Shown: positions 4,287-57,907 of the stretch, in pieces
How the letters are laid out: each line of letters begins with the position of its first letter
How positions within the stretch are numbered: the stretch's first letter is position 1
Source: Ignavibacteriota bacterium
GTDB lineage: Bacteria; Bacteroidota; Ignavibacteria; SZUA-365
Assembly (NCBI GenBank): GCA_016218045.1
Contig: JACRFB010000041.1
Coordinates: forward strand, 1 to 58,476
Reading direction: 5' to 3'
Length of the DNA: 58,476 nt
Made by a program: the position numbers and the translations under genes
The notes under the pieces: generated by a model
Seen by the model: the letters and a program-made list of their open reading frames with translations, nothing else
Database searches by the model: none
What the model was told of the DNA's origin: nothing

Positions 4287-5276
4287 TCAGCGCCGCGTCA
4301 GGTACTGAAACACCTGCACGCGGCCGTTGAGCGCGTCGGTGACATAGATCCGATCGTTGGCGTCGATATGGATGCCCGCCGGGTGAGAGAACTGACCGGG
4401 ATACTCACCGCGTTCACCGACAACGAGCAGCAGTTCACCCGCGCGGTTGAATATCTGCACAACATCGAGTAACGCATCGGATACATAGATATTCCCATCC
4501 GAATCCAATGCAATACCCTTGGGACTCGCAAAGTGCCCGATGGAAGTTCCCTGCGAACCTATGATTGATACGGTGCTGTCGGAGCGGCTGAGAACCTGCA
4601 CACGAAAATTCATCGCGTCGACGACGTACATGGATTCACGGATTGCCAGAAACAGCGGATAATTAAATGTCCCGGGCCCGGTGCCGCGAGAACCGATTGT
4701 TCCACGAAGCTCTCCACCGAGCGAGAATATATATATAACGTGTCCGCCTGTATCCGCGACGAAGAGGCTGTCACCCGCGATGGCAAGTCCCATGGGCCGG
4801 GAAAACGGTCCTTCTATCATACGAAGCGGATCACCATCCGCATCATAGACGAAAACGCGCTTCAACTCGGAATCGGCCACCAGCATCTCTCCACGGTCCG
4901 TAAAAACAATGGAGACCGGGCTGCGCAGATCCGCATCAGTGCCGCGGGTGATTCTGGTGTACTGCTCTTCCTCGCGGTTGATGACGTGTATGCAGCGTGC
5001 GCCCGGATCGGCTATATACAGGCGTCCGCGTTGATCCACGGCGACGCCCACGGGTTGGACGATGCGGTACTGCGCCTCGTCTTCGCCGAAGAGGAAGTTC
5101 AGTACCCGTGTGAAAAACGAGGGCTGGGGATTCACGTCCTCGTTCGAGCCGTAACTGGTGATATAGCGGATCCGCGCCTCGGCCGGCGGAGGAGGCCATT
5201 GGTTCTGTGTGTTTTGTGCGATCGCGCCGCCGAGCACGAGCATCTGCAGTACAGGGAGATAATATCGTATCGACAT
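4287..5276 (-). CDS. secreted NHL-repeat beta-propeller protein
   Basis: A 329-residue exported protein beginning with a signal peptide (MSIRYYLPVLQMLVLGGAIAQ), followed by about six NHL/YWTD-type blades. Blade motifs recur as PVGVAVDQRGRLYIADPG, PMGLAIAGDSLFVADTGG and HPAGIHIDANDRIYVTDALNGRVQVF. It lacks CXXCH and a lipobox, so it is probably periplasmic or released. The ATG at 5276 is preferred because an upstream TTG adds only a polar stub before the signal peptide. It is the last gene of the barrel/cytochrome/ResB/CcsA unit and lies 62 bp beyond the preceding NHL gene. Propellers in cytochrome loci are thought to aid assembly or contacts. Its partner is unknown. Confidence 0.85.
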   Translation of the reverse strand: MSIRYYLPVLQMLVLGGAIAQNTQNQWPPPPAEARIRYITSYGSNEDVNPQPSFFTRVLNFLFGEDEAQYRIVQPVGVAVDQRGRLYIADPGARCIHVINREEEQYTRITRGTDADLRSPVSIVFTDRGEMLVADSELKRVFVYDADGDPLRMIEGPFSRPMGLAIAGDSLFVADTGGHVIYIFSLGGELRGTIGSRGTGPGTFNYPLFLAIRESMYVVDAMNFRVQVLSRSDSTVSIIGSQGTSIGHFASPKGIALDSDGNIYVSDALLDVVQIFNRAGELLLVVGERGEYPGQFSHPAGIHIDANDRIYVTDALNGRVQVFQYLTRR

Positions 5277-5338
5277 GGTGGTCGTCCGATTACACAAGGT
5301 GATTCGTCTGTAACAGTATCATGGCTGCCACGATGCCG

Positions 5339-6406
5339 TCAGTATTTGTATACAAACAGACAGCCCTGCTGCGTGTCGGCAATGATGATCAACCGCCGCG
5401 CGACATGTATCAGTATCCCGTTCGGGATACCGAGCCGGTCTGCTCCATACGAAAGTACTGCTTTTCCTGTCGCGTCGAAGACCCGCACCGAACGCGAGGA
5501 CCGGTCCACGATATGCACCCTTCCCTGTTGGAGCAGACCCGAAGGATCGAAGCTCTTTTTGGACTGTTCCAGAAGTGACGGACTCGGCAGATTGTCGAAG
5601 GCAATGCCCGCCGGAGCAAATTTTGCAGGTGGAGCCGCGCTGATGAAAGTACCGCCGAATCGACCGTCGCAGCCGAAAACGTAGACGGCCCCCGCGGACA
5701 GATCGGAGATGAGCATGCGTCCGTCGGGAGTGACGGCGACACACGAGGGGTATTCGAATCCCGCCTTCCCGCTTGATCCCGGTGTGGTGGAGAACAACAG
5801 CTCTCCCTGCTCGCGCAGTCCGGGAATGGGGGATATGGAAATCGCATGCAGCCGTCGATTCGCCACGTCGGTGACATACAGGATGCCATCACGCAATGCC
5901 AGTGCGTGCGGAACGATGCGTGTCGCGGCATCGGGCAGCCACTTGTACGATTCTATGAATTCTCCTCCGCGCCGGTGCACGCGTATCTCTTTCCCGCGCA
6001 GATCGGCGACGTACAGCGTGTTGTTATCCACGGCAAGCGCGCTGATGAGTCCGCCCTCGAGGCCTTCGAGGTGTATCGACGACAGCCGTTGGAAATCCCG
6101 GTCATAGACGTCGATGAAGGGTTGTTCGGCATAGACAACAAAGAGTGAATCACCCGACTCGGCCAGACAGTATGGCCGATACACCTGTCCGTCCCGTCCG
6201 AGCGGAATGGATGTGATGAACACCGGTGCCTCGTCGAATCGTGTTGTATCGGCTTCGAGCATGACACGATCGGCCACACTGCCCCAGTAGTACCGTGTGC
6301 CGAAAAACAGGACGACGGCCAGGACCACACCCGTCGCAAGCAGCACAACAGGCGCCTTCAGCATACGGAGCGCCGGACGCGGCCGGCGCGGGATCAGGTC
6401 ATCCAT
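5339..6406 (-). CDS. membrane-anchored NHL-like beta-propeller protein
   Basis: 355 residues: a short basic N-terminus (MDDLIPRRPRPALRMLK), one transmembrane helix (about residues 16-38) and a periplasmic six-bladed propeller with blades such as ISALAVDNNTLYVADLRGKEIRVH and PSCVAVTPDGRMLISDLSAGAVYVF. The first ATG in frame would lie further upstream at 6460, but the ATG at 6404-6406 gives a clean signal anchor and overlaps the ccsA stop by 8 bp, the tight spacing seen across this operon. It is a paralogue-like neighbour of the secreted propeller 62 bp downstream. The role is inferred to be structural in the cytochrome system. Confidence 0.82.
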   Translation of the reverse strand: MDDLIPRRPRPALRMLKAPVVLLATGVVLAVVLFFGTRYYWGSVADRVMLEADTTRFDEAPVFITSIPLGRDGQVYRPYCLAESGDSLFVVYAEQPFIDVYDRDFQRLSSIHLEGLEGGLISALAVDNNTLYVADLRGKEIRVHRRGGEFIESYKWLPDAATRIVPHALALRDGILYVTDVANRRLHAISISPIPGLREQGELLFSTTPGSSGKAGFEYPSCVAVTPDGRMLISDLSAGAVYVFGCDGRFGGTFISAAPPAKFAPAGIAFDNLPSPSLLEQSKKSFDPSGLLQQGRVHIVDRSSRSVRVFDATGKAVLSYGADRLGIPNGILIHVARRLIIIADTQQGCLFVYKY

Positions 6407-7205
6407 GAATGTGAATCGTCGGGGCGATGGATCCCACGACCCATAACATAAAATATGCAAGAACCGAGGCGCCTATAATACACAACGGCGCAGTTTCCCG
6501 GTGCGAGACAATGGAAAGTCCCCGGATGTGAAATACCGACGCGACCAGAATCCACACGCCGAGACAGCCCACTTCAACGGCGTCCCACCCCCAATATCTC
6601 CCCCACGCGGCGTCCGCCCAGAGAGCCCCCGACACAAGCATGATGCTGTGGAAAAGGAATCCGGCAAGGAAAAGACGCCACACATCGGACTCTCGCACAA
6701 CCGCTGCCGTGGTGTGTGCCACGCCTGTGTGCGCCGGGCGAAGGCGCGACGCGGCACCGATCGCGGCAACGAGAAACATCGACTTCGACAGTGTTGCGGC
6801 GGTGGCGTGTATATATAACCACGTGCTGTATAAGTTTGCGGACAGGGGATTACCCGCGTCCATCATCGCTCCCGCACCGAGCAGCAGCAGCGCAAACACC
6901 AGCGCGGAAGCGGATACATGGTGCGACGGGATTCGATCGAGTTGATGCAAAAACATCAGGAGCATGACCGCGATGAGGCAACTTGCGGAAATCGACTCGT
7001 ACACATCGATGAACGGGAGCCGCCCGGTTGCCAGCGCGCGCACACTGATCGTCGCCGTATGCACCGCGGCGGCCGCCTGCAGCATCCGTAGCGCATGGCC
7101 CGGCATCGGAACGTGTCCTCGCCTCCGAAAATGCAGCATGAGAAGAAACGACAGTGCGTACAGAGCGGTGGCAGTCCAGTACAACCCGAGTTCGATGTTA
7201 TACAT
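6399..7205 (-). CDS. ccsA: cytochrome c biogenesis protein CcsA/ResC-like
   Basis: Inner-membrane heme-handling subunit of the system II cytochrome c maturation machinery. The 268-residue protein has about eight membrane segments and the tryptophan-rich heme-binding WWD-type motif WGRYWGWDAVEVG (about residues 205-217), with flanking histidines in membrane helices (for example LYIHATAA and FLFHSIML). The ATG at 7205 overlaps the ResB stop by 8 bp and has a strong GGAGGT site 4 bp upstream, so it is preferred over the longer frame beginning at 7292. Translational coupling to ResB fits the ResBC complex that ligates heme to CXXCH cysteines, here presumably for the cytochromes encoded alongside. 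Confidence 0.9.
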   Translation of the reverse strand: MYNIELGLYWTATALYALSFLLMLHFRRRGHVPMPGHALRMLQAAAAVHTATISVRALATGRLPFIDVYESISASCLIAVMLLMFLHQLDRIPSHHVSASALVFALLLLGAGAMMDAGNPLSANLYSTWLYIHATAATLSKSMFLVAAIGAASRLRPAHTGVAHTTAAVVRESDVWRLFLAGFLFHSIMLVSGALWADAAWGRYWGWDAVEVGCLGVWILVASVFHIRGLSIVSHRETAPLCIIGASVLAYFMLWVVGSIAPTIHIHG

Positions 7206-8538
7206 GCGCACCTCCGTCGGCTTCCCGCAGGAGCAGGGGTGGATCCGCAACAGCGGCAGCGCTGACAAGCGCCGAGACAATCGCTGATACATCCGCGTCG
7301 CTTTCCTCGGATGGTTTTTCGGACTCGAAGTACAGACGGATCATCGCGGCGCCCTCCTGACGATCGTGGATCAGGACAAGGCGCTGATACGACACCAGCG
7401 CGCGGAGGGTAATGCCCGCAATACACAAGACCAGCCCGGCGACAACAATCCACAGTCCCGGATCCCTGCTTATTCCGAACTGCGACCAATGCCGCAGTTC
7501 CGGAAATGCCACCGTGATACCCGAAATGGTTGTGTCCTTCCCCAATGCCACGTGAAATAGCTGACGCCCGAAGGTATTGCCGGAGAGGAATCCCGAGATG
7601 ACCGGCACGGTGTTGTTCGATACTCCGGCCGCTCCGGAATATTCACCAGCAGTTGCCGGAGGAGTAAATTCGATATTCAGCACTGTCCCGTCCTGCAGGG
7701 TCGTGCTGTCAGCAAAACGCGTGTTGCCGTCTCGCAGAATGGTCGCGATGCGCATATAGCCGGAAAATATCACATGCCCCGCCGAGTCTGCGATATAGAG
7801 GCCGGGAGAATACCCCCACATCGTTCCCTGGTGTATGGTATACCCGCGCGCTTCGATGGCTGTGTTCACATGCACACGTTGTGTGATCCACCCGCCGCTC
7901 TCCTGAATCGCGAGAAGGGATGAAGAGGTCGATGTATTCTCCACCCGGTACAACTTCTGGAATTCCGCCAGATTCACACGCAATGATACTTCGTCAATTT
8001 TCCCCGCAAGCGCGCCTGTATGCACGAGTCGCAGCCGGTCGCCACGCACATCGACCGATTCTCCTTCCGTGAGAGAAAACACACCCTCAAGGGAATACAA
8101 GGAATTGACAATCATCCCGGCAAAGACAATACACAATCCGAAATGCAGCACAACCGACGACCACGGTCCTGCGGTACCATACGAAACGACATACACAGCC
8201 GCTTCACCCGTGCGATGGTGTTCGCGTGCGCGACCTGCGAGAAAGGCGTCGATGTGATCGGAGCGGACAGCGGAATCGAGAAACAATGTACGGCTGCGTG
8301 CACGAGTATGCAGGTCATTCAGCCCGCGCCTCAGGAGGTTGCGCGTACGCGATATTCCGCTGACAAGCAGCGAGAATGTCAGCACACCCAGCGATGCGAG
8401 CAATGCCTGTGCGACGATGGATTCCGTGCTTTCCGCAGATTCAAAATACCGTGCAACAACAAGACACATCAGAGCGAAGAGCTGCGCGAGTATATAACGG
8501 GGGGATATCAGAAATCGCAACAACTCCCCGGCTCTCAA
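7198..8538 (-). CDS. resB: cytochrome c biogenesis protein ResB-like
   Basis: Partner of CcsA in system II heme attachment. The 446-residue product shows the ResB arrangement: two N-terminal membrane helices (about residues 17-35 and 41-60), a third at about 127-145, a long periplasmic beta-rich domain (about 146-360), and a final helix (GLWIVVAGLVLCIAGITLRALV). The frame begins at a TTG whose first bases overlap the TGA of the upstream cytochrome gene. A second TTG follows five codons later with a GGGGAG site, so the exact start is uncertain. Position between a multiheme cytochrome and ccsA suggests a dedicated maturation module for this locus. Confidence 0.87.
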   Translation of the reverse strand: MRAGELLRFLISPRYILAQLFALMCLVVARYFESAESTESIVAQALLASLGVLTFSLLVSGISRTRNLLRRGLNDLHTRARSRTLFLDSAVRSDHIDAFLAGRAREHHRTGEAAVYVVSYGTAGPWSSVVLHFGLCIVFAGMIVNSLYSLEGVFSLTEGESVDVRGDRLRLVHTGALAGKIDEVSLRVNLAEFQKLYRVENTSTSSSLLAIQESGGWITQRVHVNTAIEARGYTIHQGTMWGYSPGLYIADSAGHVIFSGYMRIATILRDGNTRFADSTTLQDGTVLNIEFTPPATAGEYSGAAGVSNNTVPVISGFLSGNTFGRQLFHVALGKDTTISGITVAFPELRHWSQFGISRDPGLWIVVAGLVLCIAGITLRALVSYQRLVLIHDRQEGAAMIRLYFESEKPSEESDADVSAIVSALVSAAAVADPPLLLREADGGAHV

Positions 8539-10427
8539 TACGTGCGACTGTTGTGATTGTAATTACAGTTGCTTTGAAATTCGGCATTCCCCGGGGTTTC
8601 GGTCCAGCAGATCCGGTTCGTAAAATCGATGTCGGCCACGTATCCTGCTATGAAGGCGCTTGAGAGTGCCTTGATCGTACTTTGGGCGATAGTGCTGCTG
8701 GCCACCCTCTCGCGCCAGTAATATCTTTTGTTCATGCCGTGGACAAAGATGGCTCCGGTATTTCCGCCATAGTTTCCGCCGCCGTACGTGGCGTTCGAAT
8801 TAAAATCGTACATATGACAGGTGAAACATCCTTTCACGCGTTTGTGATCTGATTCCCTGTTGGGATGACGTGTGAATCGCGAGCCGGAGCCGGTTCCAGA
8901 CCAATAGTGTGTTGGATTGTGACACATGTTGCACAGCGGCGTGCCGTTTGTGGCGTCGCTGGTGATGGTGCGTTTGAGCATCTGATCGATATTAGATCCG
9001 TGGGGCCCCTTCGGTGGTGTGCCCGTGTCGTCACTGCCATGGCAATCCGAACACCATACAATACGACCGCTGCTGGCGTAGCTTCCCCATGGCGCCAACA
9101 GGGTGGTGCTTGTGCAGTTGGCGTTTGTCGTCCCTCCGCTCATGATGCCGTGATAGGACGGGTAGCGGGGATCGATTTCCTCCGCGATGTTCCGCTGCGA
9201 TCCCGATGCGTATCCCGAGTGACATTTCAGACAGATCTGGTACTCTTTTACCGCGGGACTCACGACAGTGTAGGCGGTGACGGGAGTCCAGGTATTGCTG
9301 TTGTTCGTCATCGTTGTCGGGAGCGTTCCGAAGGTCGGTTCTACTCCCCATACACCCTTCAACACACCGCTGCCGCCCGTGCCCGCGATGTCGCGTGTAG
9401 CACCCGTGTGGACCGTCCCCTCCGCGGTATGCATGTTGTGGCAGTCCCAGCACTCGGCGTGTCTCGACGAGCCGAGATTTGACGCGGATTCCTGGGGTGC
9501 TTCGTTTTTATGCGCTCCCGACACGCTCGAGGTGGGATGTTTGTACGTTTTGGAATACTGCCCGGCGATGTTTTTTGTCGAGGCGGGCGCGGAGGAACCG
9601 TGGCAGGCGGATTGGAGGCACGTGGCCTCCTCGGCAAATCTGAGTATGTACGGCCCGCTGCCCGCTCCATGCGATTTGTGGCAACTCCTGCACGCCCATT
9701 CGCCGATGGTGGTTGCGCTTCCCCCCGCGGGTGTGTACGTCTGGGTCGACGTGCGGTGTATGACCAAGGAGCCGCTCCAACCCGACATCGTATGGCAGTA
9801 CGTGCACAGCGCTGCGTTGCTGTTCGACATCTGCAGAAAGTACCCGTTCTGATTTTTGTGCGCATCGTGGCAGGTGATGCATTCGATCCGTCCGCTGGAA
9901 GAATTTGGCTCGAGCAGGACGTTCCCCGTCCACGGCCAGCTCCGTGTCACCAACTGCGGGTCCAACGACGCGCTGTACGCATGACCGACGGGATGATCGT
10001 TCCGAAGATCCGTGCCGAGATTCCCGCCTGCACCTGTGGGCATGGTTGTGACACCCCCCGTCATGCTGATGGGTGTTGTGCCGCTCGCGGTGCGATACAC
10101 GCTGCCTATCGCGATGGTGCCGTCATGACAGCTCAGACAGAGACGGGAACGTAATCCCGGCTGCGACGGGCTGGTGTAGGACAAGGATGAGAGCATGTCG
10201 CTGGAATACAGCGTGTACGTGGAGGAGGGCTGATCACGGTTCCACAGCGGCGCGGTGGTCTGCGCGGAGTGCGGCGTGTGACAAAAGACACACAGCTCCG
10301 ATTCTGTCCCGGCCTTGATTGTTGCGGAACTTCCCGCGGAGAGATTGTGCTTCGTGCCCACGATGCTCTGCGCATGAAATGCAATGGGTGCAATCAGGAA
10401 CGTTATGATCAGGATGCTGCGTTTCAC
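8535..10427 (-). CDS. secreted multiheme c-type cytochrome (10 CXXCH + 1 CX4CH)
   Basis: A 630-residue exported electron-transfer protein. A signal peptide (residues 1-20, ending FHAQ) is followed by CXXCH motifs at residues 46, 97, 183, 208, 246, 326, 399, 459, 499 and 534, plus a spaced CLQSACH site at 270-276. Residues 21-215 resemble the whole tetraheme protein encoded at 16728-17396 (TKHNLS/SSHDF, CHTPH/CHAPH, PLWN, YTLY/YTMY, then a CH-D-G pair). The rest carries further heme sites and a non-heme tail of about 90 residues. The GTG at 10427 is preceded by GAGAGG nine bases upstream and gives a clean signal peptide, unlike the longer open frame. It lies downstream of the beta-barrel gene and overlaps resB. 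Confidence 0.92.
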   Translation of the reverse strand: MKRSILIITFLIAPIAFHAQSIVGTKHNLSAGSSATIKAGTESELCVFCHTPHSAQTTAPLWNRDQPSSTYTLYSSDMLSSLSYTSPSQPGLRSRLCLSCHDGTIAIGSVYRTASGTTPISMTGGVTTMPTGAGGNLGTDLRNDHPVGHAYSASLDPQLVTRSWPWTGNVLLEPNSSSGRIECITCHDAHKNQNGYFLQMSNSNAALCTYCHTMSGWSGSLVIHRTSTQTYTPAGGSATTIGEWACRSCHKSHGAGSGPYILRFAEEATCLQSACHGSSAPASTKNIAGQYSKTYKHPTSSVSGAHKNEAPQESASNLGSSRHAECWDCHNMHTAEGTVHTGATRDIAGTGGSGVLKGVWGVEPTFGTLPTTMTNNSNTWTPVTAYTVVSPAVKEYQICLKCHSGYASGSQRNIAEEIDPRYPSYHGIMSGGTTNANCTSTTLLAPWGSYASSGRIVWCSDCHGSDDTGTPPKGPHGSNIDQMLKRTITSDATNGTPLCNMCHNPTHYWSGTGSGSRFTRHPNRESDHKRVKGCFTCHMYDFNSNATYGGGNYGGNTGAIFVHGMNKRYYWRERVASSTIAQSTIKALSSAFIAGYVADIDFTNRICWTETPGNAEFQSNCNYNHNSRTY

Positions 10428-10601: not shown

Positions 10602-12314
10602 TCATCGAAAGAAGATGTCTATGGGTCGCCTGAAGTCGAGCACCATGTAATCGCTCACAAGGCGGCCGGTCAGGTTTCTTTGAACGCGAGCGGAAATGAG
10701 AAAGGAATGAAAGCGGTACCGCAGCTCGCCTTCGAGCAGGTAAGTTTGAAATCCGGTCAACGAACTCGCGGTCCGCTGGGCGTTGAATCGCAGGTCCAGA
10801 TTCCGCAGAAGCCGCGGAATCAACAGTTCCGCCTTGCTCAGACTGCTGCGGTCGGAAAACACGGCGGACGACCATCGCTCGGAATGGAGAAGGTTCACGA
10901 TGCAGAACGACAGTCCGTTGATGTTTGCCTCTCCTTCGAATCCTGTCACCGCGGATCGAATAAACGCCTGTGAACCTGTATACGAGACATCGGATCTCGT
11001 GGCACGAACGGCGAGTATCAGACCGGATTCCGTGGTCATGCGGCCCTCTATGCGGGCGTCGTTTCGCAACGCATCATCGCCGTTTTGGCTGTATTCGTGA
11101 GCGATGTCACTGCGCAGTGTCACCATGCCATGTTCGGATGCATTCCACGCGATTCCGCCTCCGGCCTTGCTTGCCTGAAAATATCCGCGCTCCATCCCGA
11201 ATTTCTTGACAAGCGCCGCCTCGACGGACGCGGACAGTTCATAATGCAACGCCTCGGATCCTGCGTTGTACATTCCGTCGAGTGCGACGAATGATCGATC
11301 CGCGCTTTGCTGATCTATCCCGTTTGTCGCCGATTGCACGTTGCCGCCCATTCCTGCCGAGGCGCGCATCGATGATGAAAGTGAAAGAAAGCTCCTGTGC
11401 TCAAACTGGTATTCGGTGCCCTGTTGCCTGAGCGCGCTCGACAACCTGTTTCCCGTGGCGGTGGCGCGAACGCGATGGCGGGCTCGTTCTGATTCGCCGT
11501 AGTCGCCGATCACGTCGACCGAATGATTCGAGAACGGCGCGCGCGCTTGATACTGGCCCGTCACATTCACGGTCATCGCGCCGGCCATTTCCGATCTGCC
11601 TGTTATCAGGATCTGGTGTTCGTCCGATGCGCCGGGAACGGTAAAATCGCGACGGAACATCCCGCGGTAATCCGCCGCGTAGGATGCGCCGTTGTTGGCA
11701 CTGTTTCCCAGTCTGAGAATCACCAGATCGTCCCGGCGGTACTGTTCGTCACACACGGTGATACACTTGAGCAGATCGCGCGTCACGAGCAGATCGACGC
11801 GGGGATAAAACGTGTTGCCCGGGATGTGCATGTCGATGCCGTATCGCTGCACGCGGGTGTCGTTCACCGCGCTCCATCCCGGCGTGAGCGCATCCGCCCC
11901 GCTTTGTGCCGAAGTCATGTCGTGCCTGTGCAGAAAACCCCGCAGCCGGAAACCGTTGTTCGGGAACAGTGTGGCCGAAAGTTCAAACAAGCCCCAGTCG
12001 CTGAAATCGCGTTTCTGTACCGGTCGGTCGGCAACACGAAATTGCAACGCTTCACGTACGTAGGATGTGGACGCGGTAAAGGTCAGCAGTTTCGGCGAAT
12101 AGACGTATCCGTCCACGTCAAGACGGTATCTTTGGCTGTACGTACGCTCGAGGGGAGACTGGGAAATGCGCGACCGATCATCATACCGGAGGGTGTTCTG
12201 AATGTCCGCGCGAATCGCGGAAAGCTGTGCGCCCGCGTCATGTCCACCGATCGCCCCGATGAAAAGACTCAGGACGAGTGTGTGCAGGTAGAAGTATCGA
12301 TGACAGGTGGGCAT
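10602..12314 (-). CDS. predicted outer-membrane beta-barrel, cytochrome-associated
   Basis: A 570-residue protein with a signal peptide (about residues 1-29, ending DAGAQ). The rest is a long series of alternating hydrophobic/polar stretches with aromatic ends, as in outer-membrane barrels (for example YRLDVDGYVYSPKLLTFTAST, and ELRYRFHSFLISARVQRNL near the end). The last residue group, RPIDIFFR, has aromatics close to the terminus. I do not recognise a named family by sequence. First in the unit with the 11-site cytochrome, ResB, CcsA and two propellers, it is a plausible conduit analogous to MtrB or Geobacter Omb porins, which is inference. The start is the ATG at 12314. Confidence 0.75.
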   Translation of the reverse strand: MPTCHRYFYLHTLVLSLFIGAIGGHDAGAQLSAIRADIQNTLRYDDRSRISQSPLERTYSQRYRLDVDGYVYSPKLLTFTASTSYVREALQFRVADRPVQKRDFSDWGLFELSATLFPNNGFRLRGFLHRHDMTSAQSGADALTPGWSAVNDTRVQRYGIDMHIPGNTFYPRVDLLVTRDLLKCITVCDEQYRRDDLVILRLGNSANNGASYAADYRGMFRRDFTVPGASDEHQILITGRSEMAGAMTVNVTGQYQARAPFSNHSVDVIGDYGESERARHRVRATATGNRLSSALRQQGTEYQFEHRSFLSLSSSMRASAGMGGNVQSATNGIDQQSADRSFVALDGMYNAGSEALHYELSASVEAALVKKFGMERGYFQASKAGGGIAWNASEHGMVTLRSDIAHEYSQNGDDALRNDARIEGRMTTESGLILAVRATRSDVSYTGSQAFIRSAVTGFEGEANINGLSFCIVNLLHSERWSSAVFSDRSSLSKAELLIPRLLRNLDLRFNAQRTASSLTGFQTYLLEGELRYRFHSFLISARVQRNLTGRLVSDYMVLDFRRPIDIFFR

Positions 12315-12586: not shown

Positions 12587-13450
12587 CTAGGGCTGCTCAA
12601 CGCCTGGTACTTTGTCGAGGTCCGGGAGTTCCGGCAGGTAGTGGGGGTCCTCTTCCTCCGTCGATTGTGCAGACAGGCGGGCCGTCGAAAAACCTACGCC
12701 AAGGAAAGCTCCATATTGCAGCGCCCCGCGATGGTTCCGTGTTGATAGCCCCGCGTTGATTTGCAGGTGCCCGCCGACAAAGAGGCGTACACCCGCCCGC
12801 ATCGAATAGTCGATACGCGGCACGACGTTCCCGATGCTCCCCACTTCGACCATGCCAAGGAGCGACTCCAGAATCGGATAGGAAATCCCGATCTCAAGGA
12901 GCAGTCGGTCGCGTCGTGCATGCGGTGTTGCAGTGAGCGTGTGTGCAACACCGCCGGTGACGAAGACCTGAAGGTTATCGATGTGCATTCCCACAATTGT
13001 TTGCAGCGCAACGCTTGTCCATGTGTCGACCTGCACACCGTTGCGGGCAAGTTCCGTGGAGCAGTATTCCGCACTGACAGCAAAGCTGCCAATGCCCAGT
13101 TCCAATCCAAGCGCTTTGAGCCCGATGCGCACGTCGTGGAATTCATCGCTCCCATCCCGCAGCTTTGGCGAGAACACAAGGAAGGTTTCCGACATTCGCG
13201 CCACGCCATACCCGATGGCGATCGGCTGTATGAACATGCCGCCGGAGCCGGCCTCGCTCAGAACCGAAAATCCGGCCACAAAATTTCCCGGCTCCACCAG
13301 TAACGGCGAACGAGCGAGGAACAGTCCCGTGGCACCATGCATCGTGAAGCCGATCTGCGAGCGGGCTTCCGCCGCGCTGTCGGGTTGCGCCTGCGCGAAA
13401 AGTGTCCCGCACAGGCACAGAAGAGCGAGGGTTTTACATCGCACTCTCAC
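12587..13450 (-). CDS. predicted small outer-membrane protein
   Basis: 287 residues beginning at a GTG (13450) eight bases after the stop of the octaheme gene. The start is chosen because it begins a signal peptide (RCKTLALLCLCGTLFAQAQ), while the longer open frame adds a non-signal stub. The mature part is glycine- and aromatic-rich with repeated amphipathic strands (for example RDRLLLEIGISYPILESLLGM and GVRLFVGGHLQINAGL), suggesting a beta-barrel of 8-12 strands. The acidic/proline tail (STEEEDPHYLPELPDLDKVP) is probably exposed. No named family was recognised. It is the last gene of the receiver/tetraheme/octaheme unit and could be that unit's own outer-membrane partner. Confidence 0.7.
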   Translation of the reverse strand: MRVRCKTLALLCLCGTLFAQAQPDSAAEARSQIGFTMHGATGLFLARSPLLVEPGNFVAGFSVLSEAGSGGMFIQPIAIGYGVARMSETFLVFSPKLRDGSDEFHDVRIGLKALGLELGIGSFAVSAEYCSTELARNGVQVDTWTSVALQTIVGMHIDNLQVFVTGGVAHTLTATPHARRDRLLLEIGISYPILESLLGMVEVGSIGNVVPRIDYSMRAGVRLFVGGHLQINAGLSTRNHRGALQYGAFLGVGFSTARLSAQSTEEEDPHYLPELPDLDKVPGVEQP

Positions 13451-13457
13451 GCGTGTG

Positions 13458-14711
13458 TCAATAATCGTGACAGGTGGAACACAGGGCCATGCCGGTCCCG
13501 CGCACAAGTTTTGGGAGGGCGGATGCGTGGGGCAGGTGGCACGATGCGCAATCGAGGCGACGCACCTGTGTCGAGGGACGTTCGACCGTCGTCAGAGGAT
13601 GGTTGGCGATCGGATGAGGTGTCTTGGCCATCTCGGCGTGACACGATGCGCAGATCGTATTTACCTTATCGACGAGCAACGCGCGTTCGTCGGTGCCATG
13701 CGGATCGTGACACTGCATACATCGATCCGTCGCGGGGAAATGCTGTGTCTCGCTTTTTTCCACGGCTTCGGTGGCGTCGCCATGGCACTCGCCGCAGACG
13801 GCCGTGCCGAAATCCTTGTTCGCATGAAGCGCGAACGGCTGCTTCGCCGCCGCATCGTGGCAGGTAAGGCAATCCCAGTCCGTAACGGGTGCGTGCGCGT
13901 TTTTTCGCGTGACCATGGGTGCGTGGCAGGGTCCGCAGTACTCCTTCATCGACGAGCCCCCGCCGGCGGCGGAGGCGGGAATGTCGATGGCATGGCAGTC
14001 GGCGCAGGTCTCCGAGTATACGGTACTGTGGAAATACGGAATTTCTCCAACAGAGGACGGTATCGGAAGAAATTCGGTGGGCACAAAAAATACCGCCTCG
14101 GCGCTTTGAAGCACTTTCCCCTTCTCATCAAGCCCTTGCAGCACAAGACTGTTGCTGCCCGGGGTCAGTGTGGTAGGAAGCACAAAAATCCCGGTGCTCG
14201 CGATATGGGAGGACGCGTTTCCCGTCTCGGTGATTTCGGCCGTCCACCCCTCGATTTCCACGCGGACACTCGCGATTGAATGCCGGAACAGCGACGCGTA
14301 TATGTTCTTGAACTGCTCGCTCGCCCAAAATTCCTTGAGCCCCGTGTTGCTCTCGAGGGCAAACGTCAATTCCTGACGGTTCTCCTTGTTCGCCTGAGGG
14401 TACAACATGGTGAATACCGCTTTGCTCAGGAGAAATCGTTCAGGGAACAGCGCTTTGACCGCGGATGCAAATCCATCCTTGTCCTCCTTGGTCGACATGC
14501 GCAACCAAATCGAGGCACGGGCTGGCGTCAACAGACGGATACGCGCGATGTCCTTCGAGTCCGACCGCCCGATGACCGACACTGTCCGTACCTTCGAGAC
14601 GCGTGGATTCTCGCGTGGATACAGAAGCGTGAAGAAATCCTGTGCCTGGCTTTCCGAGAGGCCGACCAGTAGACACGCAATGAGCAGAATGATATCAAGC
14701 CGATTTTTCAT
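13458..14711 (-). CDS. secreted octaheme c-type cytochrome
   Basis: A 417-residue exported protein with a signal peptide (residues 1-23, ending SQA). The N-terminal 230 residues carry no heme site and look beta-rich, possibly an Ig-like adhesion or docking domain. The C-terminal part has eight CXXCH motifs: CADCH, CGPCH, CLTCH, CGECH, CMQCH, CASCH, CASCH and CSTCH, the last ending three residues from the terminus. Such compact heme strings act as electron relays in the periplasm or at the surface. The gene lies between the SUMF1 lipoprotein and the small outer-membrane protein, with gaps of 27 and 7 bp, so one transcript is likely. The ATG start at 14711 has no strong ribosome site. Confidence 0.9.
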   Translation of the reverse strand: MKNRLDIILLIACLLVGLSESQAQDFFTLLYPRENPRVSKVRTVSVIGRSDSKDIARIRLLTPARASIWLRMSTKEDKDGFASAVKALFPERFLLSKAVFTMLYPQANKENRQELTFALESNTGLKEFWASEQFKNIYASLFRHSIASVRVEIEGWTAEITETGNASSHIASTGIFVLPTTLTPGSNSLVLQGLDEKGKVLQSAEAVFFVPTEFLPIPSSVGEIPYFHSTVYSETCADCHAIDIPASAAGGGSSMKEYCGPCHAPMVTRKNAHAPVTDWDCLTCHDAAAKQPFALHANKDFGTAVCGECHGDATEAVEKSETQHFPATDRCMQCHDPHGTDERALLVDKVNTICASCHAEMAKTPHPIANHPLTTVERPSTQVRRLDCASCHLPHASALPKLVRGTGMALCSTCHDY

Positions 14712-14738: not shown

Positions 14739-15596
14739 TTAAGGAATACTGCGGACCACGCGCATGCCTGTGTCGCGCCTTTTTGTTCCCGGCGTCAGAT
14801 ACGCGCTGCGGCATGATGAACGGTGATTTGTCGCCAGCAGAAATGCTGATCCTCCGCGGAGCACCTTTTCCGCGCCTGACGCAGGGCCCCGCGGGTCCTG
14901 CACAGCATTTGCCCCGTATGCCGACGCCGAATACCAATCCCAGCACCATTCCAGCACATTGCCATGCATGTCGAACAGGCCGAACCCATTCGCCTCCCTT
15001 TCCCCGACGGGGTGTGTCGTGCCTTCGGAATTCCCCGCATGCCAACCCACAACCGACAGCGCGTTGACATTGTCACCGGATGAGTACTCCGTGCTCGTCC
15101 CTGCACGACATGCGAATTCCCACTCGGCCTCTGTCGGAAGCCGGTATCCATTGGCGCCGAAATCACACTGCACGTTTCGTTCGGTGATGCCCGTGTAACA
15201 CGGCGTAAAATTCTCGAGCGCGCTGAGTGAGTTGCAAAAGGCCACGGCCTCGTACCAGTCGATGTTTTCGACGGGCAGTTTTGCGACACCTGTGTGGATG
15301 CTCGGATTACGCCCGGTTGCTCGCACGTAGAGTTCCTGTGTCACTTCGCACCGCGAGATCATGAACGGATGCACAGTCACCTGATGCACGGGAAGCTCGT
15401 CTTGCTGTCCCCCGGATCCGTTGATATTTCCCATGCGGAAGGCTCCGCCATTCAACGTCACCATTTCGATGAAGGTGCTCGGTGGATTCTTGGTGTCGGT
15501 GCCCGTATCACAGCCCGCGAACACACAGACAGAAACGCACACCGGAAAAAATACTGCTGTCATCCGTCGCAGTATGTGAAACACAATCCGCGTCAT
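14739..15596 (-). CDS. SUMF1/FGE-fold lipoprotein
   Basis: A 285-residue predicted lipoprotein (lipobox VFAGC at about residues 25-29) with one formylglycine-generating-enzyme-like (SUMF1) domain. Typical family motifs include GGAFRMGN, RCEVTQELY, LPVENIDWYEAVAFCN, RLPTEAEWEFACRAG, NGFGLFDMHGNVLEWCWDWY and VLRGGS. In true FGE two cysteines near the C-terminus do the chemistry. Here only one (HRSSCRS) is visible in the matching region and the GFRC ending is replaced by GMRVV. I therefore infer a non-catalytic binding or structural role. The start at 15596 overlaps the propeller gene stop (ATGA), ensuring coupling. No sulfatase gene is nearby. Confidence 0.85.
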   Translation of the reverse strand: MTRIVFHILRRMTAVFFPVCVSVCVFAGCDTGTDTKNPPSTFIEMVTLNGGAFRMGNINGSGGQQDELPVHQVTVHPFMISRCEVTQELYVRATGRNPSIHTGVAKLPVENIDWYEAVAFCNSLSALENFTPCYTGITERNVQCDFGANGYRLPTEAEWEFACRAGTSTEYSSGDNVNALSVVGWHAGNSEGTTHPVGEREANGFGLFDMHGNVLEWCWDWYSASAYGANAVQDPRGPASGAEKVLRGGSAFLLATNHRSSCRSAYLTPGTKRRDTGMRVVRSIP

Positions 15597-16651
15597 GGTC
15601 CGACAAAGCCGTACACGTTTACCAGATCGGATCCCCATTGATTCGTGACGAAGATCAGGTATTTCAACACAAGACCCGGCGCCACGTACTTTTTGAAATG
15701 ATCGACATGTTCATAGTCGATCAATACTTTGACGGGCATGTTCAAGTCGCCGGGGCCGTGATATGGGCCGCCAAAAAACAGCAGGAGACGGCCTTCCTTA
15801 TCAAAAATCTGTACGTTTTCAAACGCCGCATCAACGGCGTACAGATTGCCATCGCGGTCCACATCCACACCCTTCGGTCGCACGAACTGTCCCAGTTGAT
15901 TTCCATGCGATCCGATACTTGTGATATACGTTCCTTCGAGATCAAACACCTTGATTTTCTGATCGCCGATGTCGCTGACATAGACGCGGTCTGACCATAT
16001 GGCAAAATTCGTTGGCGAAAACAGGTACGACGGGGCTTTTGGATCTGTCGTGTCCGGGAAACTTCGTACCATCGGGCCGCCACCGTGCGGAAACACCTGC
16101 ACCTGATGACGGAGCATATCGAGAATCCAGACGCCGCCGGAGGTGCATTTGACATCCACGGGTTTCGAGTCTTTTCCGTCACCGATCGCGTTGATGTAGT
16201 CCAATTCCGGCGTAAAGATCACCACTTGTTTTCGATCGGTATCGGCCACGTACACTCTCCCCGAAGAATCGACGGCGCAATTGATGGGGACACGCAGTTG
16301 TCCCTGTCCTCGCGGTTGGAAAGCGCTCAGCGTGCCCTTCGCAAAATCTCCCACGACGAGCCCGTGGACCCGGGAATCACACACGTACAATTTTCCATTG
16401 TGTGTGGCGAGACCGTAGGGCCGGATGAGGTGAATCCCCGCGTCGTCTCCGAGAATAGTGCTTAAAACTCCGCCCGCGTCGCGACAGGCGAATCGACGGT
16501 CCTCAGCAAAACTCGTCAGGTACTGCACACGCGCCACCTGTGGTGGCGGGGGATACATGATATACTCGTTTGTCGGGCCGAGAGCCGCGGGCCCCGCGCA
16601 TGCGGCGAACAGAATCGGACAGAGAAGCAGAAAATGGAGAGATCTATGCAT
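15593..16651 (-). CDS. NHL-repeat beta-propeller lipoprotein
   Basis: A 352-residue predicted lipoprotein: a signal peptide with lipobox FAACAG, then a conserved segment (YIMYPPPPQVARVQYLTSF) that also occurs in the secreted propeller at 4287-5276 (QWPPPPAEARIRYITSYG), then about six NHL blades (for example PYGLATHNGKLYVCDSRVHGLVV and PKGVDVDRDGNLYAVDAAFENVQIF). The ATG at 16651 is selected because it starts the signal peptide, whereas the open frame extends into the hairpin region. It follows the tetraheme cytochrome and overlaps the SUMF1 gene. The shared pre-blade segment suggests the two propellers are paralogues serving similar partners. Confidence 0.87.
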   Translation of the reverse strand: MHRSLHFLLLCPILFAACAGPAALGPTNEYIMYPPPPQVARVQYLTSFAEDRRFACRDAGGVLSTILGDDAGIHLIRPYGLATHNGKLYVCDSRVHGLVVGDFAKGTLSAFQPRGQGQLRVPINCAVDSSGRVYVADTDRKQVVIFTPELDYINAIGDGKDSKPVDVKCTSGGVWILDMLRHQVQVFPHGGGPMVRSFPDTTDPKAPSYLFSPTNFAIWSDRVYVSDIGDQKIKVFDLEGTYITSIGSHGNQLGQFVRPKGVDVDRDGNLYAVDAAFENVQIFDKEGRLLLFFGGPYHGPGDLNMPVKVLIDYEHVDHFKKYVAPGLVLKYLIFVTNQWGSDLVNVYGFVGP

Positions 16652-16727: not shown

Positions 16728-17396
16728 TTACTTGGTGTGGCAGGTGAGGCAGAGAGCGCTCGCCGAATTGCTCTTCTTGAGCAGACTTGTCGAGCTGCCG
16801 CTCTTGTTGTGTACGTCGTGGCAGCTCGCACACTCGATTTTGTCATTGTAGAGCATGTGATCTTTCAGCAGACCCTGCGGCGTGCTTGCACCGTACAAAG
16901 TCACGTTTGTTGTCGACGGATCCGCAAGCTCTCCGTCCGCGGTCGCAAGCGCCGAGTTGTAGGTGATGCTGATCGGGTGATCATCATCGAGCGCCGTTCC
17001 AAGAAGGGCGGAACCGGTGAGATACGTCGTGTTGGTTGTGGTACCGCCAAAATTACCGAGGCCGACGGAGCCGTCATGGCAGGCCATGCAGATTTTCGAC
17101 GCAGAACCGAGACTTGTCGGTGCGGTCGAGTTCTGGGTCCCGGTGGTCTTGTTGGCTCCCGTCGACGTGTTGTCGTACATCGTGTAGCTCGCCGTGGATA
17201 CCGCGTGGTTCCAGAGCGGACCCTGCGTCTTCTGCGCCGCGTTATGCGGTGCATGACACGTGACGCAGATTTCTCCGGTCGTGTTCCACGTGTACGTCGT
17301 GGAGTTTTTGAAATCGTGCGAGGAACCGGTGATTTGTGCACCGGCCGTGCCTGCAAACACGGCGAGGAAAAGAAGTGCTGCGATGCATTGTCTCAT
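16728..17396 (-). CDS. secreted tetraheme c-type cytochrome, OmcE-like candidate filament subunit
   Basis: 222 residues: signal peptide cleaved about after residue 20 (GTAGA), then about 202 mature residues with CXXCH at 44, 103, 189 and 216. Extra histidines at 27, 51, 64, 140, 180 and 196 could give bis-histidine ligation. Size, four hemes, the last site beside the C-terminus, and the CHAPH...PLWN...YTMY pattern recall OmcE-type cytochromes that polymerise into extracellular wires. That assignment is from memory of the family and needs a structural test. The strong GGAGG site upstream, overlap with the receiver stop (ATGA) and the following hairpin suggest high expression. The N-terminal half of the 630-residue cytochrome at 8535-10427 resembles it. 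Confidence 0.9.
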   Translation of the reverse strand: MRQCIAALLFLAVFAGTAGAQITGSSHDFKNSTTYTWNTTGEICVTCHAPHNAAQKTQGPLWNHAVSTASYTMYDNTSTGANKTTGTQNSTAPTSLGSASKICMACHDGSVGLGNFGGTTTNTTYLTGSALLGTALDDDHPISITYNSALATADGELADPSTTNVTLYGASTPQGLLKDHMLYNDKIECASCHDVHNKSGSSTSLLKKSNSASALCLTCHTK

Positions 17397-17875
17397 TGTG
17401 AAAAACCTCCAGGAATGGATTGGGTGGGATGAGACTGATCTAAGTGCGGATCAGAGATATGTGGAGAGAGTGAAGTCTGTGAACAATGCATCAAGGTTGT
17501 GACACGGCGCACCACGACATCAACATCGAATGGCTTGGGAATAAAGTCCGAGATATTGCCCCTGTTTGTGCAGAGGCCTAAGCCTGATTCATGTCTCGCA
17601 CTGATCATGATAACCGGGATTGTCGGATCCTTGTCGAACGCCGCGTCGGTGATCATACAACCACAGCCGTCGTTCAGCTCCATGTCCGTGAGTACAATGT
17701 CGATCTGCTGGCCACGGAGTACCTGCAACGCATACTCGACCGACTCCGCTTCGACGGGGTTGAATCCCGACGCTGCGAAGGCGGTACCGAGAACCCAGCG
17801 CAACAAGGGCTCATTATCGACAATCAGAATTGATGGGGAACTTGGAACTGAGGTGTGCAAGAGTGTCTCTCTCAA
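17393..17875 (-). CDS. stand-alone response-regulator receiver protein
   Basis: A 160-residue protein with one receiver domain (about residues 15-128) and no output domain. Key residues are present: acidic pair position D20-N21, phospho-acceptor D64 (VLTDMEL), S92 and K114 (FIPKPF). The opening ILIVDNEPLLRW closely matches ILIVDDERLLRW of the NtrC-type regulator at 18092-19456, so it may descend from that receiver or share its kinase. The first frame codon is TTG and the true start is unsure. Its stop overlaps the tetraheme cytochrome ATG, so translation is coupled. It could be a phosphate sink or a protein-protein regulator of assembly. Confidence 0.8.
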   Translation of the reverse strand: MRETLLHTSVPSSPSILIVDNEPLLRWVLGTAFAASGFNPVEAESVEYALQVLRGQQIDIVLTDMELNDGCGCMITDAAFDKDPTIPVIMISARHESGLGLCTNRGNISDFIPKPFDVDVVVRRVTTLMHCSQTSLSPHISDPHLDQSHPTQSIPGGFSQ

Positions 17876-18091: not shown

Positions 18092-19456
18092 TTACGTAAT
18101 CCCGTGCTTCTTCATTCTGTAGCGTAACGTGTCCCTGCTGATCTGGAGAAGCCGCGCCGCTTGTGATTGGTTATTATCACATGCCCCAAGCGCGCGTTTG
18201 ATGGCGTTCCGTTCAAGCTCGTCCAGCGATTCAGCGGTCGAGGCGATTGTCGCTTCATGAACGACGGGCGTTTCGAGTGAGTGGAGATGCCCGAGCTGTA
18301 CGGAATGGGAGAAGATGTACTCGCCGTCGTCAAGAAACGCCGCGCGTTCGATAACATTCCGCAACTCGCGAACATTGCCCGGCCAGGAATAGGAGAGAAA
18401 CAGCTTTTTTGTTTCTTCGCTCAGACCCTTGTACTCTTTTCGGAACTTGGTATTGAATTCCTGCAGGAAGTGATGCGCGAGCAGCAATATGTCGGTGCCG
18501 CGCGTGCGGAGCGGCGGGAGTTCGATGTGCATGACGTCGAGCCGGTAGTACAGATCCTGCCGGAATTGCCCTTTCTCGATCAATGTCTCGAGGTTCTGAT
18601 TCGTGGCCGCGATGATGCGCACGTCAACTCCGATATCGTGCTCGCCTCCGACGCGTCGAAATGTTTTCTCCTCGAGCGCGCGGAGCAGAACGGCCTGCAG
18701 TTCGAGGGGCAAATCGCCGATCTCATCAAGAAACAGTGTGCCGCCGTGTGCCAATTCGAAAACACCCTTGTGACGCGCACGCGCGTCCGTGAAGGCGCCC
18801 CTCTCGTGACCGAACAGTTCGCTCTCCATCAGCGTACGCGGTATCGACGCGCAGTTCACAGTCACAAAGGCCTTGTCCTTTCTATCGCCCAATGAATGAA
18901 GGGCGCGCGCCACAACTTCTTTCCCGGTACCACTCTCTCCGGTTAACAGCACTGTTGATGCCGTGGCGCCGGCAAATTTCATCACGGTCGAAATGATGCG
19001 TTTCATCCCGTCGGACGCGCCGATGATGCCGAAGACGCCGCCTTCCCTCACTTGTTCCTGAAGCGCTGCGCGATATTGTCGATGCACCAGGGTCTGCTCG
19101 AGCGCGCGACCGATGAGCAGGTGCAACTCCTCGAAGTTGATCGGCTTGGTGACATAGTCGTATGCTCCGAGTTTCATGGCGCGCACTGCCACATCCGACG
19201 TGTCGACGGCTGTGATCATGATGACCGGTATGTCGGGCGCGGTTGTTCGAATGAAGGCCAGCACCGCGAGCCCGTCTTCGTCCTCGAGTATTTGATCCAA
19301 TAGAACCAGATCCGGCTCGACCTGTTCGAAAACCGCGCGCGCCTCAGCGGCGCTTTGGGCTTCATGCACGGTAAATCCCGCAGCGGTCAGTTCTTCCCTC
19401 ACCGCCCAGCGCAACAGTCGCTCGTCGTCGACAATCAATATCGATTCCGGACGCAT
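18092..19456 (-). CDS. NtrC-family sigma-54-dependent response regulator
   Basis: 454 residues in three domains. The receiver (1-120) has D10-D11, phospho-acceptor D54, T82 and K104. The AAA+ domain (about 143-370) has Walker A GESGTGKE (173-180), sigma-54 contact loop GAFTDA (220-225) and Walker B around GTLFLDEIGD (239-248). A Fis-type helix-turn-helix ends the protein (NNQSQAARLLQISRDTLRYRMKK). The contact loop is GAFTDA rather than the usual GAFTGA. The ATG at 19456 shares one base with the stop of the kinase gene (TGATG), so the two form a two-component pair. Three palindromes downstream are its probable binding sites, and the cytochrome units its probable targets. Confidence 0.93.
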   Translation of the reverse strand: MRPESILIVDDERLLRWAVREELTAAGFTVHEAQSAAEARAVFEQVEPDLVLLDQILEDEDGLAVLAFIRTTAPDIPVIMITAVDTSDVAVRAMKLGAYDYVTKPINFEELHLLIGRALEQTLVHRQYRAALQEQVREGGVFGIIGASDGMKRIISTVMKFAGATASTVLLTGESGTGKEVVARALHSLGDRKDKAFVTVNCASIPRTLMESELFGHERGAFTDARARHKGVFELAHGGTLFLDEIGDLPLELQAVLLRALEEKTFRRVGGEHDIGVDVRIIAATNQNLETLIEKGQFRQDLYYRLDVMHIELPPLRTRGTDILLLAHHFLQEFNTKFRKEYKGLSEETKKLFLSYSWPGNVRELRNVIERAAFLDDGEYIFSHSVQLGHLHSLETPVVHEATIASTAESLDELERNAIKRALGACDNNQSQAARLLQISRDTLRYRMKKHGIT

Positions 19457-20958
19457 CAGTCCTCCATTGCCGCGAAGGGTGGAAATGACAACGTGACGGT
19501 CGTTCCAACATCCACGGTACTGTCGATGGAAATGGCGCCCCCGTGTTGCTCCATGATACGTTTCGAAACGGCCATCCCCAGTCCGGTCCCCTTGTGTTTG
19601 GTTGTGTAAAACGGAGTGAACACGCGGGAGAGCACGTCGGGCGAAATACCCGATCCAGTGTCCTGTATCCGGATCGTTGCACGCTGTTCCACGTTTTCGA
19701 GGGAGACCTTCATCACACCGCCGGACTTCATGGCTTGGGTAGCGTTCAGCATCACATTCCAAAGCACTTGTTGGAGTTGTTTCTCATCACCCTGAACAAT
19801 GGGTGCGGAAGCATCCAGCTCAAACGACATGGTAACCCCCGCTCGTTCCGCTGAAATCTGGAAAAGTGAATGCAGATTCCGAAGCAATTCCGCCAGGTCG
19901 AGCGGCTGCAGTTTCGGCGGCGACATGCGCGAATATATCAGGAGGTCATCGATCACCGTGTTCATCCTGTCCAATTGCGCTATCATTTCATCGTAGATTT
20001 CTGCGCGTTCGGCGTCCACTCCACCCTGCCTTCTGAAAATGTGCAGCGCGGCTTTAATTCCGGCGATGGGATTTTTTATTTCATGCGCCATCATCGCGGC
20101 CATCTCGCCGATGGTCGCAAGCTGGTCCGCCCGACGCAACTGTCCGTCATGTACATCGAGCAACTGTGAATATGCGTTATCGAGACGCGTAATCAGCAGC
20201 GAAAATGACCGGAACAGGTCCGCAATCTCGTCCCGTCCGGACACGACAGGGGCGGTGGGCATGGATACCGGCTCGCCGTTTTCAATCGCGGAGATAGCCA
20301 TCTCCGACGCGCGAATGTATCTCTTCAGTTTATTAACCGGACGAACGATGATCAGACCCAGAGAGACGGCCAACATCACCCCGAGCAGGGCGACTATGGA
20401 ACCGAGAGCGAGCATGTTCCCGGTCCGGTGCTCCTCCGCAACCGCCATGAGATCATCCAGGGAAACCGTAATCGCGAGATACCCGAGCACATCCTTTTCT
20501 GTGCCGTGGCATTTCTCACAGCCGCCCCGGTTCCGAAGCGGGCTGAGATAGAGTTCCTGTACACTGTTCCCGTTGCGTACAAGGTGAAAGCGATGTTCGG
20601 GCACCGCAGGATCCGGCGTCAGACTTGCAAGATCGATGCGTGCCTGCTGTTCCTTTTTTTCCAGTGGGAAGAGGATACTCCCGCTATCCGACACAACATA
20701 CGCCGCACGTACCCGCGGTGTGGAGAGAATCGAGCGGAGCCCTTCCGCGACTTCCGATTTGTCGGCCGAATTCATGAAGTGCAGCACGAGATTCTGCCCG
20801 ACGTATGTCACACCCTGAGCGCGACTGTGGCCCAGCGCAAGCAGCATGTTTGTACCAGTTGAATACGCCAGATAGTAAAAGGCACCCCCGGAAACCGCGA
20901 GAGTTACCGCGATAAAAATGACGAATTTTCCGAGAATACTACGGTGCGAAAGCGACAT
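19456..20958 (-). CDS. sensor histidine kinase with periplasmic c-type heme motif
   Basis: 500 residues. The first membrane helix is at about 9-31. A periplasmic domain follows (about 32-180) and contains CEKCH at 147-151, a covalent heme-c attachment site. A second helix lies at about 182-205, then a HAMP-like linker. The HisKA domain has the phospho-accepting H292 (AHEIKNPIAG), and the HATPase domain has N-, G1- and G2-box motifs (NVMLNATQAM, DTGSGI, GTGLGMAVS). The ATG at 20958 starts a normal signal-anchor, and the longer frame is probably non-coding. The gene is coupled to the NtrC-type regulator. A heme-bearing sensor implies redox or small-ligand sensing, which fits control of the cytochromes; the exact signal is unknown. 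Confidence 0.92.
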   Translation of the reverse strand: MSLSHRSILGKFVIFIAVTLAVSGGAFYYLAYSTGTNMLLALGHSRAQGVTYVGQNLVLHFMNSADKSEVAEGLRSILSTPRVRAAYVVSDSGSILFPLEKKEQQARIDLASLTPDPAVPEHRFHLVRNGNSVQELYLSPLRNRGGCEKCHGTEKDVLGYLAITVSLDDLMAVAEEHRTGNMLALGSIVALLGVMLAVSLGLIIVRPVNKLKRYIRASEMAISAIENGEPVSMPTAPVVSGRDEIADLFRSFSLLITRLDNAYSQLLDVHDGQLRRADQLATIGEMAAMMAHEIKNPIAGIKAALHIFRRQGGVDAERAEIYDEMIAQLDRMNTVIDDLLIYSRMSPPKLQPLDLAELLRNLHSLFQISAERAGVTMSFELDASAPIVQGDEKQLQQVLWNVMLNATQAMKSGGVMKVSLENVEQRATIRIQDTGSGISPDVLSRVFTPFYTTKHKGTGLGMAVSKRIMEQHGGAISIDSTVDVGTTVTLSFPPFAAMED

Positions 20959-21182
20959 GGAACTGGAAAACCAGATTGATGCGGTACGTGCGAAATGTGT
21001 GTATTTTTTGTAGAGATGCCAATATAACCATGAAAGCGCAACAAATGGTGCCGTCGTTGTCGATTCTGATCCGAAGTCGACAAAAAAAGCGTGAATTTTT
21101 GGCCCTGTGAAAAAAACGCCCACCCATTATCGCCGTAAGTCATTATATGACAACGATTTTACTTTTTCTCGGGGACGGGAAA

Positions 21183-35095: not shown

Positions 35096-35141
35096 GGCTG
35101 CTCTGAATTATGAATTTGAATCGTGCGAAATCGTGTGTGAG

Positions 35142-52226: not shown

Positions 52227-52406
52227 GGTACACCCTTTAATATGTCGGAAACTGGATGGAACAGAATGTTTCGAATCTACCGGTATCAACGGTCCGGTGC
52301 GAGGCAGATCCGCGTCCGTGATGTACTGGTGACTCTTCCGTCACTGCCGTGGTGGAAGGATGCGCCACCTGTCTGCGCGACGTGGCCGCGCTTGTGGTCC
52401 GGCCGC

Positions 52407-57668: not shown

Positions 57669-57754
57669 AAAACACCCCTCTTTCTGATGGTTGAATTGGC
57701 TCACACCGGTGTGGTCATGAAACCTTGATTGTTCAACAGAAGTGAACTCCAACA

Positions 57755-57783
57755 ATGTTAGATCGTTTCTTCCATGATTGCAA
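57755..57783 (-). promoter_or_regulatory. candidate promoter of the type IX-secreted protein gene
   Basis: Minus-strand TTGCAA (57783-57778) and TAACAT (57760-57755) with a 17-bp spacer. Predicted start near 57748, 80 bp before the ATG. Moderate match only. The interval 57669-57907 has no gene. Confidence 0.45.
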
Positions 57784-57907
57784 GGTAAAATCATGTGCCA
57801 ATTTGTCACACTCCTTTCGATTACCACCAATTCACCCACGATTTATCGCGTTTTCCCTCTGTCATTTCGTGCAACACTGCTTAGGCGTGTCTTCCGATTT
57901 CATTGCG

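Follow-up and report, generated by a model that had tools for sequence, protein, structure and literature searches.

The gene at 16728-17396 of the window (the whole stretch of DNA analyzed, 58,476 nucleotides from an Ignavibacteriota bacterium) encodes a tetraheme cytochrome that is exported and belongs to the UetA type within the OmcE superfamily; the gene lies in a widespread conduit cluster. The best explanation of its function, to which we give a probability of roughly 55%, is that it is a surface protein that stacks into an OmcE-like heme chain fed by a Uet-like conduit. On the basis of homology across a clade split and of a conserved hairpin behind the gene, polymerization of the tetraheme is likely; we infer its surface location, its contact with the head of the neighboring UetJ-like cytochrome, and the direction of electron flow.

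Relationship of the tetraheme protein to OmcE

The first-pass annotation of this DNA had placed an OmcE-like tetraheme gene at 16728-17396 and gave no strand. The open reading frame is real, has exactly these bounds, and lies on the minus strand. Four CXXCH motifs start at residues 44, 103, 189, and 216 of the precursor, the last one ending near the C terminus as had been noted; four or more such motifs appeared in 0 of 20,000 shuffles of the protein's own composition. Also borne out were the mature length of 202 residues, after a putative Sec signal peptide that we cut by eye at AGA20, and the strong ribosome site, with GGAGG 9 nt ahead of the ATG. This ATG overlaps the stop codon of the upstream receiver-domain gene (ATGA). 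The sigma-54 promoter consensus had 18 matches across the whole window versus 28 expected, none of them convincing upstream of the tetraheme gene, and a search near the gene on the same strand found no sigma-70 or terminator pattern.

What is this protein related to? A search of solved structures gave two strong matches, both full length: 9YUQ, a putative multiheme cytochrome c (E = 4.9e-25), and 7TFS, the OmcE filament of Geobacter sulfurreducens (residues 6-222; E = 2.8e-24). The E value for OmcE improved to 7.8e-45 with a profile of the tetraheme family (80 sequences, the query and 79 relatives). Eight histidines (H27, H48, H51, H107, H140, H193, H196, and H220) are invariant in 80/80 of these sequences and are also found in OmcE and 9YUQ. 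They would correspond to four proximal and four distal ligands, exactly enough for four bis-His hemes. The many spare histidines previously credited to the protein are thus reduced to 2 of 10 (H64 and H180), since the other eight are this invariant set; H180 is not conserved among relatives. Full-length homology and all eight ligand histidines in register strongly support membership in the OmcE superfamily.

Other searches were less specific. Pfam and NCBIfam returned generic doubled-CXXCH cytochrome matches only. The AlphaFold2 monomer of the mature protein had a pLDDT of 73, with residues 43-73 under 50, and this moderately confident model yielded no match at E ≤ 0.001 or Z ≥ 2 in Foldseek and VIA-align, 7TFS included; structure searches are reported to recover only the close homologues of OmcE (PMC9473688). 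9YUQ was deposited with 16 copies of its chain, and no mention of it was found in our literature search.

Is the tetraheme an OmcE orthologue? In an IQ-TREE phylogeny of tetraheme proteins, UetJ heads (the OmcE-like N-terminal domains of UetJ cytochromes), OmcE, and 9YUQ, the UetA-type clade was split from the other three with support of 97.4/100, and FastTree gave the same split (0.93). The UetJ heads were monophyletic (94.8/100 in IQ-TREE), and OmcE and 9YUQ lay on their side of the split. H64 (codon 64, 17205-17207), the histidine of PLWN-His, is histidine in 79/80 sequences of the UetA-type clade, whereas this position is arginine in OmcE, 9YUQ, and most UetJ heads and histidine in 0/45 UetJ heads. 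By the 97.4/100 split and by its PLWN-His where OmcE has PLWN-Arg, the tetraheme is not an OmcE orthologue. OmcE stands nearer to the OmcE-like head of the neighboring undecaheme than to the tetraheme of the window. The description of the protein as OmcE-like therefore held with regard to superfamily homology, the eight shared ligand histidines, and neighbors in common with OmcE-type genes, but not with regard to clade. Because OmcE and 9YUQ cluster with the UetJ heads, polymerization is not bracketed by phylogeny.

The tetraheme shares with OmcE its length, four CXXCH motifs, the eight aligned ligand histidines, and export. In OmcE, a neighboring subunit donates a ligand to one heme (PMC9473688, PMC12954529), and OmcS likewise has a cross-interface heme ligand (PMC12954529). 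Linear bis-His heme chains are described in the literature for OmcS and archaeal cytochrome nanowires as well, but these proteins have no full-length sequence similarity to the tetraheme, the match to OmcS being limited to the C-terminal CXXCH pair.

A conduit cluster around the tetraheme gene

A scan of one genome per species across 84,980 species recovered at least 573 relatives of the tetraheme, the best 80 of which came from Bacteroidota, Calditrichota, Proteobacteria, Desulfobacterota, Planctomycetota, Gemmatimonadota, and others. Forty-four loci spanned at least 16 kb; these were drawn from the set nearest to the query, and their frequencies describe the UetA-type clade only. An NHL gene (NHL1) lay directly downstream of the tetraheme gene in 41 of them, a barrel gene of one family was found in 42, another NHL gene (NHL3) in 41, and uetJ in 41. 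The cluster of this clade thus consists of a tetraheme, an NHL propeller, a barrel of ~650 aa, a second NHL protein, and an undecaheme with an OmcE-like N terminus; most clusters have one tetraheme gene. Among the hosts, Aestuariivivens marinum MT3-5-12 (L088) is listed as a strain rather than a MAG. Within the phylum of the window (345 genomes), UetJ occurred in 5 genomes, the window's own included, and a short tetraheme homologue was present in 5/5. In the UetJ proteins of relatives, the OmcE-like domain occupies the first 190 residues; nearly all have 11 CXXCH motifs, and a C-terminal CX3CH is present in 44/44 aligned. Calling these proteins undecahemes may leave a twelfth heme, at this CX3CH, uncounted.

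In the window, the genes run in the order kinase, NtrC-type regulator, receiver, tetraheme, NHL, FGE, 8-heme, ~300-aa protein, barrel, UetJ-like, ResB, CcsA, NHL, and NHL (Table 1). The putative barrel was picked out from 11 window proteins by a hidden Markov model at E = 4e-7, a weak match in a small, within-cluster search set. The FGE-sulfatase protein had no homologue in the related loci examined, among which its insertion is specific to the window cluster, and G005, a same-family genome, has the same parts in a different order, minus FGE and the additional receiver gene. The UetJ-like protein carries 10 CXXCH motifs, has CX4CH as its heme 6 motif, and is without the C-terminal CX3CH of its aligned relatives; its altered heme motifs are shared in part by relatives of the same phylum. 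We rejected the reading that this protein has lost one heme, as heme 6 is the CX4CH and the missing motif is the CX3CH. Its AlphaFold2 model (pLDDT 45.6) was too poor for a fold search.

Table 1. Features of the tetraheme gene and its cluster in the window
Feature	Position	Strand	Remark
CcsA-like cytochrome c maturation protein	6399..7292	-	By inspection; homologues in same context
ResB-like cytochrome c maturation protein	7198..8538	-	By inspection, no NCBIfam match; homologues in same context
NHL propeller	4287..5297	-	Homologue of the NHL preceding UetJ in relatives
NHL-type propeller protein	5339..6460	-	
UetJ-like cytochrome	8535..10427	-	OmcE-like head (4 hemes) and tail
Putative outer-membrane beta-barrel, UetC-like, divergent	10602..12314	-	HMM of 59 positional barrels
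Exported protein of ~300 aa, no known domain	12587..13507	-	Start codon uncertain; conserved in same-family genome
8-heme doubled-CXXCH cytochrome	13458..14711	-	Homologue beside OmcE-type genes in G437/G661
FGE-sulfatase domain lipoprotein	14739..15638	-	Insertion between NHL and 8-heme genes
NHL beta-propeller, lipoprotein-like (LFAAC)	15593..16651	-	Gene after tetraheme in relatives too
14-bp hairpin 3' of tetraheme stop codon	16677..16709	-	Counterpart in 56-57/78 relatives
Tetraheme cytochrome c, 222 aa, OmcE superfamily, UetA-type clade	16728..17396	-	ORF, ATG to TAA
Signal peptide, 20 aa, AGA/QIT, without lipobox cysteine	17337..17396	-	Read by eye
Shine-Dalgarno GGAGG, 9 nt 5' of ATG	17406..17410	-	Sequence
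Stand-alone receiver-domain protein	17393..17875	-	Stop overlaps tetraheme start
NtrC-type (sigma-54) response regulator	18092..19459	-	
HAMP histidine kinase	19456..21123	-	One CXXCH (CEKCHG) in sensor part

Several further genes of the window drew our attention. The heme-motif kinase (19456-21123) adjoins the NtrC-type regulator, an observation that also applies to loci L117 and L121 and that may point to redox control of the cluster. A TMEM260-like protein O-mannosyltransferase domain is encoded at 32333-35107; serine and threonine make up 28% of the tetraheme, and the filaments of OmcE carry glycosylation. The products of 50850-52340 and 56112-57842, one of which is a C25 peptidase, have type IX secretion sorting tails, a sign of a host resembling Bacteroidota.

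The gene set of the clade matches the published Uet (undecaheme electron transfer) system, compared by gene set and description and not by reference sequences. The Uet cluster is reported from Tenderiales and Gallionella (PMC10734462, citing Eddie et al. 2022), with the extracellular tetraheme UetA, the barrel UetC, the NHL proteins UetH/I, and the undecaheme UetJ. The window has the tetraheme (UetA, by gene set), a putative barrel, three NHL-type genes as the counterpart of UetH and UetI, and, as a candidate for UetJ, a homologue with about 11 heme motifs (10 CXXCH and one CX4CH). It differs from Uet in its 8-heme cytochrome, FGE protein, ResB/CcsA, and the number of its NHL proteins. The PPIase UetB and the trihemes UetD/E/G were absent among the window cluster genes scanned, and for this reason we call the cluster Uet-like and not a member of Uet. 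OetABI (PMC10553843), a conduit paired with OmcS/OmcX and not with OmcE, was set aside as an analogue only.

A link to OmcE-type loci comes from G437 and G661, which encode an OmcE-type protein 60% identical to OmcE in the order ResB, CcsA, 10-heme, 8-heme, NHL, OmcE. These loci share the ResB/CcsA, 8-heme, and NHL neighbors with the window; the two genomes lack a fused UetJ. Elsewhere in G437 and G661, an OmcE-like gene of ~300 codons has immediately after it a heptaheme gene, a homologue of the UetJ tail. Head and tail thus form a single protein in one lineage and are encoded side by side in another, which suggests that they function jointly. A Desulfobacterota-side search also found a compact set of NHL, OmcE-like, and heptaheme genes (L169-L172), with a triheme in 3/4, that resembles a split version of UetJ.

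Proposed excess production, polymerization, and anchoring

A stabilizing hairpin had been proposed to follow the tetraheme gene, and a 14-bp hairpin is indeed present downstream of the stop codon (-25.7 kcal/mol for the 70-nt stretch; z of -3.3 versus dinucleotide shuffles). Its conservation was surveyed in the 90 nt downstream of each gene. An unusually strong hairpin followed the tetraheme gene in 56/78 loci of relatives (median z, -4.1; 57/78 in a dinucleotide-shuffle rerun), compared to 6/69 for NHL1, 3/59 for the barrel, 11/51 for NHL3, and 7/47 for UetJ. The simplest reading suggests that the tetraheme mRNA is separately ended or protected and yields more product than its conduit partners. 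Since the hairpin is conserved at the tetraheme gene and rare at its neighbors, the tetraheme would be produced in surplus, as expected for the subunit of a polymer. Many of the hairpins of relatives look terminator-like, and such a hairpin can also signify no more than a separate transcript. Several OmcE-type genes are also followed by one, for which a monocistronic terminator would account.

How might the tetraheme work? We propose that it acts at the cell surface alongside the Uet-like conduit. Electrons would cross the barrel and its multiheme cytochromes to the UetJ-like protein, whose exposed OmcE-like head would contact tetraheme subunits. By analogy with OmcE, the tetrahemes would stack head to tail as a heme chain, each completing the heme ligation of its neighbor, and the chain would extend to an external acceptor or donor.

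The clade apart from OmcE, with an extra histidine of its own, could also belong to an extracellular tetraheme that does not polymerize and sits as a single copy on the UetJ head, serving as a terminal reductase, an oxidase, or a short-range adaptor. That most clusters have one tetraheme gene agrees with this alternative, as does the Uet literature, which describes UetA simply as an extracellular tetraheme (PMC10734462). We nevertheless regard a non-polymerizing protein as rather unlikely: the OmcE filament is among the nearest relatives of solved structure (PMC9473688), and the conserved hairpin suggests that the tetraheme is needed in excess of its neighbors. A periplasmic carrier that supplies the conduit from the inner side and resembles OmcE by family likeness only is quite improbable. 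In its favor, a Sec signal without lipobox or sorting tail leaves surface export not evident from the sequence, and the cluster showed no further small carrier gene. Against it, OmcE is extracellular (PMC9473688), UetA is predicted to be so (PMC10734462), and the serine and threonine content of the tetraheme (28%) exceeds that of OmcE (19%), a glycosylated surface filament (PMC9473688).

A polymerizing surface tetraheme raises the matter of what holds the chain; the anchoring and electron supply of cytochrome nanowires are listed as an open issue (PMC12307469). What cytochrome filaments do physiologically is itself disputed (PMC11077965). We tentatively suggest, with less confidence than we have in the heme chain itself, that the wire has a built-in base in the UetJ-like protein, with its N-terminal domain a fixed copy of the subunit from which the tetrahemes polymerize. 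With the head as a subunit copy, the wire would be joined directly to the trans-membrane conduit. If true, this reading would explain the anchoring and feeding of cytochrome nanowires: conserved in lineages from Bacteroidota to Proteobacteria, the cluster joins a subunit-like domain to a multiheme tail beside a barrel and so offers a concrete and testable answer. The cluster also extends OmcE-type biology well beyond Geobacter.
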